Below the pieces are notes generated by a model that saw nothing but the letters and a program-made list of their open reading frames with translations, was not told where the DNA came from and made no database searches. The translations under genes and the position numbers were made by a program. Shown in pieces: positions 1 to 4,268 of a DNA stretch of 28,359 bases. Where the stretch lies: the IMG/VR virus record IMGVR_UViG_3300047299_000009, positions 1-28,359 of that record. One strand, 5' to 3'. The DNA comes from a virus. How positions within the stretch are numbered: the first letter of the stretch is position 1; every line of letters begins with the position of its first letter.

Positions 1-2433
1 CTTAAACATACCTTCGCCAATCATGCTGATTTTGTCAGCAACTGGTACTAGCTCGAGTATACGCTCCATCGGGCTCTTTGCACCAAACAAGCTCATTAAG
101 CCTGTTACCAAGCTAGTAGCAGTTGCGGCTACCATACCTGCGGCAAATACTACTGCACCAGCACCTACTGCCGCAAGACCTGCGCCAACTGCAATTAAAT
201 TTACTCCGTCAACACTGCCAATTTTTTCTATTGCGTCTGCAAACACATTGGCAGCTTGCCCTGCAACCCATGCCCCTACCCCAAATACACCAAGTGCAAT
301 CCCAAGTGCCGCGATTGCAGCCGAACCCAATAGTATTGGACCAACAAACGTACCCATAATGGCAGCAACTGCGCCAAAAGCTCCTAAAGCTACTACACCC
401 TTAGCAATACCTTCCCATTCTACGTCACTAAATGACTGGAAACCTTTACCAGCTACCCACATAGCGGCTCCAAGTATTGCAATAACTGCGGCGCCTTTGA
501 TCATACCAGTCGTTGCTTCGCCTACCAGTCTGGCTATACCAATTAGGCCGCCAAGTGCCAGTGTGCCTTTTACAAAACTTTCCCAGTTGACTTCGTTAAA
601 TGTTTTTAGTCCCACTGCCGTTAATGCTAATGCAGAACCTAACAATGCTAGTGTGCCTGCACCTTTAACAGTTTTACTTTCGCCAAGTTTACCAAGCAAG
701 TCACCGAAGCCTTCAAGACCTTTGCCTGCGGCACCACTTAGCTTGTCCATGATTCCGCTGCCAGCACCTTGTGCGGCAGCAGTGGGACCATTTTTCCAAC
801 CTGCAAGTGATCCAGCGGCTGGGCCAGCTGTACCCATCTTCTTGCCAAACATGCCACTAAACATGTCGCCCATCTTGCTGCCTAGGCCACCTTTTAATAA
901 TCCACCAATACCACCTGCAACCGCTATAGCACCCAGGCTACCTACTAATGTTGCAATACCAGCAGTAACACCAAGAATAACATTACGCAAACTTTCAAGA
1001 GCTGCCGTTAGGCTATTCATAGCCATGATGTTATCAGTTTCTGACGTTCTTGGCTTAGGCTCTTCGCCGGGTTTGGCGGTATCCATACCTGCTTTGAATC
1101 TTGCTAGTACGGCGCCGGTTGCTGAATAGTTTGGATTATTAACTGCTTGATTAGATGCATCTTGAATAATTTGTTCCATCTGTGGGGCCAAATTCTTCAT
1201 CTCTCTAGCAACAGCATTCATGTCCCCGGCGCCGCCGGCTCTGTTAATAGAAGTCATCAACAAGTCCATAGCTTGTTGCTGTGGTCCGGCTCCAATTACA
1301 GCTCGTGCCTGTCCTTCTTCGCCTCGCATTACACCTAGTGCGGCACGGGCGGCTTTTTCTGGGTCAGTCGCAACGCCCATGTCTTGCATTAACTTAGCCA
1401 AAGCCGCTGTTTCAGCAGTCATTCCTCCTCTAGCCGCAAATGTACCAGCGTCAGTTTTTCTAAATGCTTCTGCGGCTGCAAGTGCGGCTTTTGCGCTGAT
1501 GCCAAATGCACTGTTTAGAGACTTTGTAGACTCCATAGTTCTGGCATACTGTTCAACTAATCGTTGTTTTGCATCTTGTTCGTTTTTGGCACCCATAGCC
1601 GCGGTAACAGCAAGGTCACCTGTTAGCTTTGCTTGTTCTTCATCGGTTATACCCATCGAACGAGCGGCACGAGCGGCACGGTCAACACTTTTAACAAGAT
1701 CTTTACCTAATGCATTACGTAGGGTATTATTAAGATATCCACTACCATACTTCAATCCACGACTTAGGTTACTTAAATTTTCAGCGGCTTCTTGACTTGT
1801 AGCACCAAATGCTCTAAAAGTACCGTTACTGTTTTCAATTACTTTCATGAATGCGCCACCAAGGCCACTCATTAGTTTCATCTGCGTAACTGAGCCAACA
1901 CTAAATTTATCAAGGTCGGCAAATGCCCCCATCTCGCTAGCTTGTTTGGCAAATTCTTGAAGCTGACCGATTGCGAAACCAGCCCCCATCGCAATGCCGC
2001 CAACTATTCTACCAAATGTAGTGCCTGTACCCAATAAGCTACCACTGAAACTTCTAAACATGGTAGTAATATTTGCATCAGCACTGATCATTGATGCGCC
2101 TAAGTCCTTGAACGCATCAGTTGTTTGTTCTTGAATACGTTTGGCTTTTAATTGTTCTTTAGTCAAGTCTTGCTGGGCGTCAACAGCATCCTTGGTAGAT
2201 TTAATTTCTTTTTCTGTTTCTTTGTTTAACGCTTGAATCGTTTTAGTTGCTTTTTTTATTTCTTCGCGATTTGCTTTTTCAGTTGAATCAACTGCTTTAG
2301 CACGTGGTACTGGACCATTTTTAGGAGTGCCAGATGATGTTGATTGGCTACTGCCACGGCCAACAGAACTTGACACGCTGTCTAGCTTGTCTGTTAATCT
2401 GTCTATTGCCTTTATTAGTTCTTTATCATCCAT
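1..2433 (-). CDS. Tail tape-measure-like protein, partial (C-terminus beyond left edge)
   Basis: The minus strand is open from an ATG at 2433 to base 1 with no stop, giving 811 codons of a longer gene. The N-terminus (about residues 1-110) is charged and looks coiled-coil, rich in Lys, Glu and Gln. It is followed by a long Ala/Gly-rich helical region and then strongly hydrophobic segments from about residue 480. Two similar units, FNEVNWESFVKGTLALGG and FSDVEWEGIAKGVVALGA, lie roughly 75 residues apart, suggesting tandem modules. Extreme length, low-complexity helices and hydrophobic stretches are typical of phage tape-measure proteins, which set tail length inside the tube. It starts after AAAGGA and is divergent from the gp26-like gene, a likely tape-measure chaperone. 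A late-type promoter lies upstream at 2504-2510. The family call rests on composition and context rather than a diagnostic motif; a large tail or virion-internal protein is the alternative. Being on the opposite strand to the other tail genes is unusual. Confidence 0.7.
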   Translation of the reverse strand, partial: MDDKELIKAIDRLTDKLDSVSSSVGRGSSQSTSSGTPKNGPVPRAKAVDSTEKANREEIKKATKTIQALNKETEKEIKSTKDAVDAQQDLTKEQLKAKRIQEQTTDAFKDLGASMISADANITTMFRSFSGSLLGTGTTFGRIVGGIAMGAGFAIGQLQEFAKQASEMGAFADLDKFSVGSVTQMKLMSGLGGAFMKVIENSNGTFRAFGATSQEAAENLSNLSRGLKYGSGYLNNTLRNALGKDLVKSVDRAARAARSMGITDEEQAKLTGDLAVTAAMGAKNEQDAKQRLVEQYARTMESTKSLNSAFGISAKAALAAAEAFRKTDAGTFAARGGMTAETAALAKLMQDMGVATDPEKAARAALGVMRGEEGQARAVIGAGPQQQAMDLLMTSINRAGGAGDMNAVAREMKNLAPQMEQIIQDASNQAVNNPNYSATGAVLARFKAGMDTAKPGEEPKPRTSETDNIMAMNSLTAALESLRNVILGVTAGIATLVGSLGAIAVAGGIGGLLKGGLGSKMGDMFSGMFGKKMGTAGPAAGSLAGWKNGPTAAAQGAGSGIMDKLSGAAGKGLEGFGDLLGKLGESKTVKGAGTLALLGSALALTAVGLKTFNEVNWESFVKGTLALGGLIGIARLVGEATTGMIKGAAVIAILGAAMWVAGKGFQSFSDVEWEGIAKGVVALGAFGAVAAIMGTFVGPILLGSAAIAALGIALGVFGVGAWVAGQAANVFADAIEKIGSVDGVNLIAVGAGLAAVGAGAVVFAAGMVAATATSLVTGLMSLFGAKSPMERILELVPVADKISMIGEGMFK

Positions 2434-2468: not shown

Positions 2469-2484
2469 CATAAATACATTTATG
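2469..2484. promoter_or_regulatory. Late-type promoter ATAAATA within a 7-bp palindrome
   Basis: CATAAATACATTTATG is a perfect 7-bp inverted repeat around a two-base centre. Its plus-strand half contains ATAAATA (2470-2476), a close match to the T4 late -10 element. Transcription from it would start near 2482 and serve the gene at 2528, which has a TAAGGA ribosome site at 2514-2519. The symmetry could also make it an operator or allow reading in both directions. The palindrome is seen directly; the function is inferred. Confidence 0.5.
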
Positions 2485-2510: not shown

Positions 2511-2527
2511 CGTTAAGGATTAACTAC

Positions 2528-3421
2528 ATGGATAACTCAAACCCACTGAAACAGCCAATTAAGCAGCCTGTTGCCAACCCATTGGCCCAATACTATCGTA
2601 AGCCCGGCACTTATATTGAACTGCCAAGTGGCGGACGTTTTTATAACACACCACCTAAGCTAAGTGACACAGGCGAATTGGCTGTATACCCAATGACTGC
2701 CAAAGATGAACTTGCGCTAAAGAATCCGGATGCGTTGTTAAACGGCGAAGCACTAAAACAAGTTATTGCTTCTGTGTGTCCTGACATTGCAAATGTATCA
2801 GAAATGCCTGCACCTGACATTGATGCTATCTTAGTTGCTATGCGTATGACCAGCTATGGCGATGATATGGAACTAGATGTTACTCATGGCTGCGAAGAAA
2901 GCGGTGGTAAAGCACAAAGAGTTACAGTTGGTTTAGGTAGTGTATTGTCAACATCACGTGCTATTCCTGAAAATTTAGGTACAGTAACATTAGCAAATGG
3001 CGTTGTTGTACAGCTAAAGCCTTATACATTAGAAGCACAAAGCAAACTACTTCGTGTGCAATTTAACACAATGCGCCAGCTTCAAGGGGTTGAAGCAAAC
3101 GAAAATTCTACTATTGAACAAAAAGCAGATGTTGCTAACCGTGGATACAAACAGTTAGTAGATTTGAGTACTGACATTCTTGCGGCAAGTATTACAGTAG
3201 TAAGATTGCCAGACGGAGTTGAAGTAACAAACTACGAACATATTCATGATTGGGTTAAGAATTTAGATCGCGCATCTAATGAACGTCTTGACGAAGAAAT
3301 CAAAGCATTTGGCAAGTATGGTATTACTCGTACATTAGAAGTAACTTGTGATCATTGCAAAAACAAATTTACAACCGACATGCTATTTGACCCTACAAGT
3401 TTTTTCAGCGTAGGCTCTTGA
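2528..3421 (+). CDS. 26: Gp26-like baseplate hub / tail assembly protein
   Basis: This 297-residue protein begins at an ATG eight bases after TAAGGA. The N-terminal part carries YYRKPGTYIELPSGGRFY, a pattern seen in T4-type gp26 baseplate-hub proteins. A Cys-X2-Cys pair (C274, C277) near the C-terminus and an earlier Cys (near residue 122) might bind metal. T4 gp26 is about 208 residues and is needed for hub assembly. Together with gp51 it may act as a chaperone for the tape measure rather than stay in the particle. Here the gene lies back to back with the tape-measure-like gene, which fits that role. Its last codons contain the heptamer T TTT TTC at 3400-3406, within a region where the -1 frame is also open. 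A -1 slip would replace the last four residues with 77 new ones, giving a 370-residue product. The gp26 call is from sequence pattern and position. Confidence 0.65.
   Translation: MDNSNPLKQPIKQPVANPLAQYYRKPGTYIELPSGGRFYNTPPKLSDTGELAVYPMTAKDELALKNPDALLNGEALKQVIASVCPDIANVSEMPAPDIDAILVAMRMTSYGDDMELDVTHGCEESGGKAQRVTVGLGSVLSTSRAIPENLGTVTLANGVVVQLKPYTLEAQSKLLRVQFNTMRQLQGVEANENSTIEQKADVANRGYKQLVDLSTDILAASITVVRLPDGVEVTNYEHIHDWVKNLDRASNERLDEEIKAFGKYGITRTLEVTCDHCKNKFTTDMLFDPTSFFSVGS
3400..3406 (+). promoter_or_regulatory. Candidate programmed -1 frameshift site TTTTTTC
   Basis: Read in the frame of the 2528 gene, the bases divide as T TTT TTC, a classical X XXY YYZ slippery heptamer encoding Phe292-Phe293. 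The -1 frame is open from 3391 (after a TGA at 3388-3390) to 3639. The site therefore falls inside the 31-base overlap where a slip can produce a fusion. A short hairpin (3418-3424 with 3428-3434, three-base loop, one G-U pair) begins 11 bases downstream and could stimulate slipping. Lambda and many other tailed phages use -1 frameshifting to make G/GT tail chaperones. Confidence 0.6.
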
Positions 3422-3639
3422 GTCTAGGACTCGATAGAAATAAGATTCGACGTTTTATCGAGAGCATTGAAAGTGAGTCAAGAGCCGTAATCAAAGAAGT
3501 ATCCATGTTAAGTGTTTGGGGCAACATTAGCCCACAAGAAATTTGGAACATGACTCACGAAGAAAGAACAGTACTAAGCGAAGTAATCAAAGAGCATACA
3601 GAAGTCATGTATGGCAAAAAGGGTATTGCTCGTCGTTAG
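3418..3639 (+). CDS. Small protein or -1 frameshift extension of the gp26-like gene (gp51-like position)
   Basis: As a separate gene this would start at TTG 3418, overlapping the upstream TGA by four bases, and give 73 residues with only a weak TAGG as ribosome site. As the frameshift extension it contributes 77 residues (3406-3636) after Phe293 of the upstream protein. The peptide is helical and charged, with IRRFIESIESESRAVIKEVS and then SPQEIWNMTHEERTVLSEVI. In T4 the hub-assembly gene 51 follows gene 26, and in lambda the T domain is the frameshifted part of GT, so position favours an assembly-chaperone role. No ATG lies near the expected N-terminus, which favours frameshifting or translational coupling over an independent start. 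It is followed by the gene-free region. Confidence 0.6.
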   Translation: MSLGLDRNKIRRFIESIESESRAVIKEVSMLSVWGNISPQEIWNMTHEERTVLSEVIKEHTEVMYGKKGIARR

Positions 3640-3846: not shown

Positions 3847-4268
3847 ATAAAAACACTTGACCCGAAGTCCAATGCCACATTCAATTACAGCAACTTGTTA
3901 AAGTTAGGGCGGTCACGCTGTACCCTTTTACGCTTTTCTTATTATGACGCTACTGCACACACCTAATTGAAATAACGTGTGCAATATGCAGGTTGTAATA
4001 GTTCACCAGAGCCTGCTCTTTCTAGCTTTACATATACTAAACCCAGATCTTTTCAAGCAATTGATCTACGTCCTGTTAAGGATAGTGGGTGTTAGTCTCC
4101 GCTACTGCGTCGGAAGTTCCTTCCCCAGCGCAACCCTAGTGCCTGGTTTTATGGGTGCAATATAACTGGCTGCACAAGCCTATCAGTAGTAAATGAGTCT
4201 GGGGGAGTTAGCGGTTTACGCAGGAAGTATAAGGATTTATCTGTTGTACAGATGAGTTAACCGTGTAG

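Follow-up and report, generated by a model that had tools for sequence, protein, structure and literature searches.

The main product of our analysis is a two-product reading of one phage gene. On comparative sequence data, and with a probability that we put at roughly 0.93, the gene at 2528–3421 of the window encodes the tail assembly chaperone (TAC) of a T4-like phage both as a short TAC-N and as an extended TAC-NC, the latter made by a programmed -1 ribosomal frameshift that a downstream RNA stem would aid. The window is the whole 28,359-nucleotide stretch analysed here (IMG/VR record IMGVR_UViG_3300047299_000009). Established at the sequence level are the heptamer with its frame overlap, a selected protein in the -1 frame, a covarying stem, the protein family and its single copy. 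The features concerned are as follows:

1–2433, minus strand: tape-measure gene, 811+ amino acids, running off the window (phrog_4372, tail length tape measure, E 1.8e-10)
2469–2476, plus strand: CATAAATA, resembling a T4-type late promoter, upstream of the TAC gene
2514–2519, plus strand: Shine-Dalgarno sequence TAAGGA ahead of the TAC-N ATG
2528–3421, plus strand: TAC-N, ATG start, 297 amino acids, gp26-like (PF12322/phrog_150 baseplate hub family)
3391–3639, plus strand: -1 open frame, in which codons 3406–3636 give the 77-amino-acid TAC-C extension of the 370-amino-acid fusion
3400–3406, plus strand: slippery heptamer T TTT TTC in the zero frame (T TTT TTY in 85/85 genes)
3413–3421, plus strand: 5' arm GGCUCUUGA of a conserved, probably stimulatory stem, 6 nt past the heptamer
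3478–3486, plus strand: 3' arm UCAAGAGCC, pairing with 3413–3421
3430–3462, plus strand: less conserved inner hairpin in the stem loop (3430–3439 with 3453–3462)

The zero and -1 frames overlap by 31 bases (3391–3421), and TAC-N ends at a zero-frame stop at 3419–3421. A slip at the heptamer would join 293 zero-frame residues to 77 residues of the -1 frame, giving a 370-residue fusion with a Phe293-Gln294 junction. A preliminary description of this DNA had already placed the heptamer and the overlap at these coordinates and predicted this junction and products of 297 and 370 residues, all of which proved correct on recheck.

To the family of the gene several lines of evidence point. The window protein matched PF12322 (T4_baseplate, gp26/gp51) with 52.1 bits against a gathering cut-off of 24.5 and phrog_150 with an E-value of 7.9e-21; in T4, gp26 (215.6 bits) and gp51 (177.5 bits) each belong to PF12322 as well. 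Its predicted fold resembles T4-like baseplate hub proteins in BFVD, and a search among solved structures for folds resembling TAC-N gave no credible match. By analogy, we assign the gene as the putative TAC of a large T4-like phage. Each of the ten scoring heptamer-bearing T4-like genomes or large contigs carried one PF12322 gene, versus two in T4, a count in which SCTP-2 has no scoring gene and the window, a 28-kb fragment, has its single copy judged by its relatives. The T4-style two-gene TAC (26 plus 51) was thus not encountered, as no second PF12322 gene was found in the scoring relatives, which fits the published view that T4 replaces frameshifting by two genes. The premise of the preliminary description that T4-type phages have separate genes 26 and 51 is outdated, since frameshifting T4-like TACs have been published.

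A viral-contig search recovered 80 relatives of the TAC at 37–98% identity. The comparison then covered 85 genes: the window, 78 relatives whose 3' end is complete, reaching down to about 36% identity, and six cultured jumbo phages (Atu_ph07, Paride, RaK2, GAP32, SCTP-2 and XacN1). All 85 carry the heptamer in the zero frame, as T TTT TTC in 73 and T TTT TTT in 12, between 1 and 10 codons before the stop. In-frame XXXYYYZ heptamers are frequent (40 per 8,845 codons in the window), so that the heptamer by itself says little and gains its significance from being invariant. The same result came from a further list of 17, made up of the same six cultured phages, eight more cultured phages, contigs L094 and L095 and cyanophage S-PM2, where a zero-frame T TTT TTY lies near the stop in 17/17. 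Synonymous variation falls to zero at ACA AGT TTT, against a gene-wide median of observed over expected near 1. When distant members were used as queries, the viral-contig searches returned few extra loci, and a nucleotide search against phages returned no match. The alignment of homologues that the preliminary description had proposed thereby shows that no relative whose 3' end is complete lacks either the heptamer or the -1 overlap.

Just past the heptamer lies the second conserved element. In the aligned sequences, GGCTCTTGA can pair with TCAAGAGCC, which is just as conserved and lies about 56 nt downstream. The two make up the 9-bp stem of 3413–3421 with 3478–3486, and its arms change together: GGCTTTTG/CAAAAGCC, GGCTTTCT/AGAAAGCC, AGGCTCCTG/CAGGAGCCT and GGCTCTTTGT/ACAAAGAGCC. 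With synonymous-codon shuffles that preserve protein and codon usage as the null (p at most 0.05), a stem beginning just past the heptamer was significant in 58 of 63 genes. RNAalifold on 47 sequences returned this stem alone as its consensus, the window fold contains it (MFE -26.4 kcal/mol, z -2.74), and it lies within the MFE fold of 42/42 close relatives. By pair counting, 28 cells were doubly compensated against a shuffled mean of 8.5, a count of cells that overstates the number of events because relatives are not independent; several pair differences separate the stems of the window clade, the L070 group, the L077 group, L068, Atu_ph07 and XacN1. Paired cells amount to 87% and drop to 27–56% when the partner is slid, a control biased toward any stem derived from the same sequences, and we therefore give the compensatory cells and the synonymous data more weight than the slide test. 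Read as -1-frame codons, CTC TTG of the 5' arm and xCA and GCC of the 3' arm show no synonymous variation, whereas codons elsewhere have a median near 1. The inner hairpin has 69% of cells paired and 50 double changes. We also observed, within the stem loop, a GAA codon (3469–3471) with no synonymous change in 45 sequences.

The stem is variable in form and in occurrence. SCTP-2 has it with a loop of about 125–130 nt, contig L095 has a 16-bp version, and Paride and PA5oct each offer two competing candidates, one short-loop and one long-loop. In the shuffle test the stem was not significant in RaK2, GAP32, Munch, BF, EcMJ, Vibrio 2.275, XaC1, CM1 and L094; the first five form an enterobacterial jumbo lineage in which the stem is weak or absent and the heptamer is kept. 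Since these nine members all bear the heptamer, we regard the heptamer as universal in this sample and the stem as lineage-specific. A different element, a hairpin at 3418–3434, had been put forward in the preliminary description. Its 7-bp inverted repeat is present as letters, but it is absent from the predicted fold, and about half of the relatives cannot form three of its seven pairs, which led us to reject it; the covarying stem is the likelier downstream element and probably promotes slippage, its spacing from the heptamer fitting the canonical one for -1 frameshifting.

The protein encoded past the heptamer bears its own marks of function. The -1 extensions are 70–81 amino acids long, and by codon comparison the extension is under purifying selection (median dN/dS 0.20 over 401 pairs, with third codon positions varying most). 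An AlphaFold2 model of the extension gives a helical domain with pLDDT 87. In one relative, L079, unlike in all others, the -1 frame is cut short by a TAG 11 codons past the heptamer (L079 3816–3857), which may be an error or decay, and in L013 and L020 the extension stops at the contig end.

A selected downstream frame might also be a separate small gene, translated by coupling or by re-initiation at TTG 3418 beside the stop at 3419–3421. This TTG is the sole -1-frame start near the heptamer; in the window and its close relatives it shares bases with the stop (TTGA), its best Shine-Dalgarno match is a weak AGG upstream, and the small ORF is annotated as a gene of its own in several cultured phages. 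The TTG start with a weak ribosome site had been pointed out before, to which we add that the TTG is not conserved: closer relatives share it, several distant ones lack it, and L069, L077, Paride and RaK2 are among those without a usable nearby start. Neither a conserved start nor a good ribosome site was found in the second frame among the relatives compared, and heptamer-less relatives with two frames and clear ribosome sites, named earlier as the case against a frameshift, were sought among the relatives and none was found. Moreover, the extension is alignable from the first codons past the heptamer (RRLL), ahead of any possible start, the invariance of the heptamer argues against a separate gene, and the conserved CTC TTG letters are accounted for by the stem. 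An independent start at TTG 3418 was rejected because it is not conserved, and a separate gene is in our view improbable. The programmed -1 frameshift in a G/GT-type tail chaperone, as first suggested from the sequence, is supported by the conserved heptamer and overlap and by the lack of a good second-frame start.

The frames could likewise be joined during transcription, by RNA polymerase slipping on the T run in place of the ribosome, and a subclade with longer runs (TTTTTTTT in L058 and L059) would suit this. A run of six T is short for transcriptional slippage, however, and most members have only six, while a covarying RNA stem at 5–6 nt spacing fits ribosomal -1 frameshifting; we consider this explanation slightly less probable still than a separate gene. 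A pseudogene break or sequencing error in a once-continuous gene, which typically shows as neighbouring frames that meet at a homopolymer, is refuted by the comparative data and has a negligible chance of being right: independent assemblies and cultured phages alike have the arrangement, in 85/85 genes, both frames are conserved, and purifying selection acts on the -1 frame.

Under programmed ribosomal frameshifting, most ribosomes would terminate at 3419–3421 and release TAC-N, and a minority would slip back one base at U UUU UUC. The 9-bp stem, enclosing the inner hairpin, would aid the slip by slowing or straining the ribosome, and slipped ribosomes would read the -1 frame to make TAC-NC, with TAC-C as its helical C-terminal domain. 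TAC-N would then coat the tape-measure protein, and a few copies of TAC-NC would recruit tail-tube subunits, both by analogy with lambda gpG/gpGT. We infer the slippage, its efficiency, stimulation by the stem and the chaperone role from sequence and from this analogy.

The neighbourhood follows the lambda-like layout only in part. Adjacency to a tape-measure gene, as described earlier, holds (phrog_4372), but the lambda G-T-H gene order does not: the tape measure lies on the minus strand and is transcribed divergently from the TAC, and the usual same-strand order of tail tube, TAC and tape measure, which is typical and not strictly defining, was not seen in the window. RaK2, GAP32, Paride and SCTP-2 also have a long minus-strand neighbour upstream of the TAC. 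In 63 of 82 loci, NATAAATA occurs within 110 bases upstream of the TAC. Between the two divergent genes, CATAAATACATTTATG at 2469–2484 resembles a T4-type late promoter that is perhaps two-way. On the other side, the gap after TAC-C contains a full-length Rfam Polynucleobacter-1 RNA (RF01718, 94.9 bits; 4036–4180, minus strand). Of 20 related phage loci, 19 carry this RNA a short way past TAC-C, again on the opposite strand, and the RF01718 family therefore looks phage-borne.

Taken together as one joint proposal, to which we would give even odds, the long-loop stem (about 7–16 bp, loops of about 32–130 nt, 3–6 nt past the heptamer) may be a previously undescribed, lineage-specific element that determines how much TAC-N is made relative to TAC-NC in those T4-like jumbo phages in which TAC and tape-measure operon are uncoupled; the enterobacterial jumbo branch would have lost it or put something else in its place.

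A frameshifting TAC of this type is already known from related phages, and the stem appears to be the fresh part. Vladimirov, Gautam and Davidson (2022, Virology 566:9) reportedly identified the TAC genes of T4-like phages, and are said to have found a gp26-type TAC-N joined to a -1 TAC-C at a poly-T slippery site, with T4 using genes 26 and 51. That frameshifting in T4-like tail chaperone genes is published (Vladimirov et al. 2022) is also cited in PMC10885494 (PRFect) and PMC12846349. The window has the same poly-T join of TAC-N and TAC-C. In T4 itself, 26 and 51 are two separate genes and the end of gene 26, unlike the window, has no heptamer, in keeping with a switch from T4-like frameshifting to a two-gene arrangement in the group of T4 itself. 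The C-terminal extension of T4 gp51 weakly resembles TAC-C (27 columns, 30% identity, hhalign P 0.0012), and a Foldseek match of TAC-C to gp51 of Acinetobacter phage ZZ1 was not significant; direct homology of TAC-C to the gp51 C-terminus, suggestive only on these 27 columns, was not adopted.

Other systems share part of the arrangement. Lambda gpG/gpGT, the source of the chaperone role proposed here (Xu 2004, 2013; review PMC5009743), likewise pairs a short with a -1-extended chaperone adjoining the tape-measure gene, but it uses another slippery sequence and is not known to be related in sequence, and the TAC and tape measure of the window are divergent. The TAC of Pakpunavirus Adele and of Vandenendeviridae and Andersonviridae has an invariant GTTTTT at the TAC-N 3' end followed by an uninterrupted -1 frame (PMC12846349), and so shares the 3'-end T motif and open -1 frame with the window across different phage families; the consulted part of that source mentions no downstream stem for it. 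Cyanophage S-PM2 (NC_006820) gp26 has T TTT TTC, as the window does, one codon before its own stop, and a perfect 14-bp hairpin 9 nt downstream (shuffle p 0.22) with a short 7-nt loop, unlike the long-loop stem of the window; its next gene, on the same strand, is a long unnamed ORF of 3.5 kb where a tape measure would be expected, whereas the tape measure of the window is divergent. The annotated 57-aa gp51 of S-PM2 (L099:1191–1364) lies inside the -1 extension of gp26, and what was annotated there is probably part of a frameshift product.

The literature searched yielded no account of the long-loop stem, which falls short of proving that none exists. The analysis reinterprets a gene pair usually shown in databases as a baseplate hub protein and a small hypothetical ORF, and it offers, backed by covariation, a candidate stimulatory stem whose part in balancing the tail-chaperone forms lends itself to direct testing. 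Compared with the T4-like TACs of Vladimirov et al., the window clade, of uncultured jumbo T4-like phages, would add this covarying long-loop stem 6 nt downstream of the heptamer.
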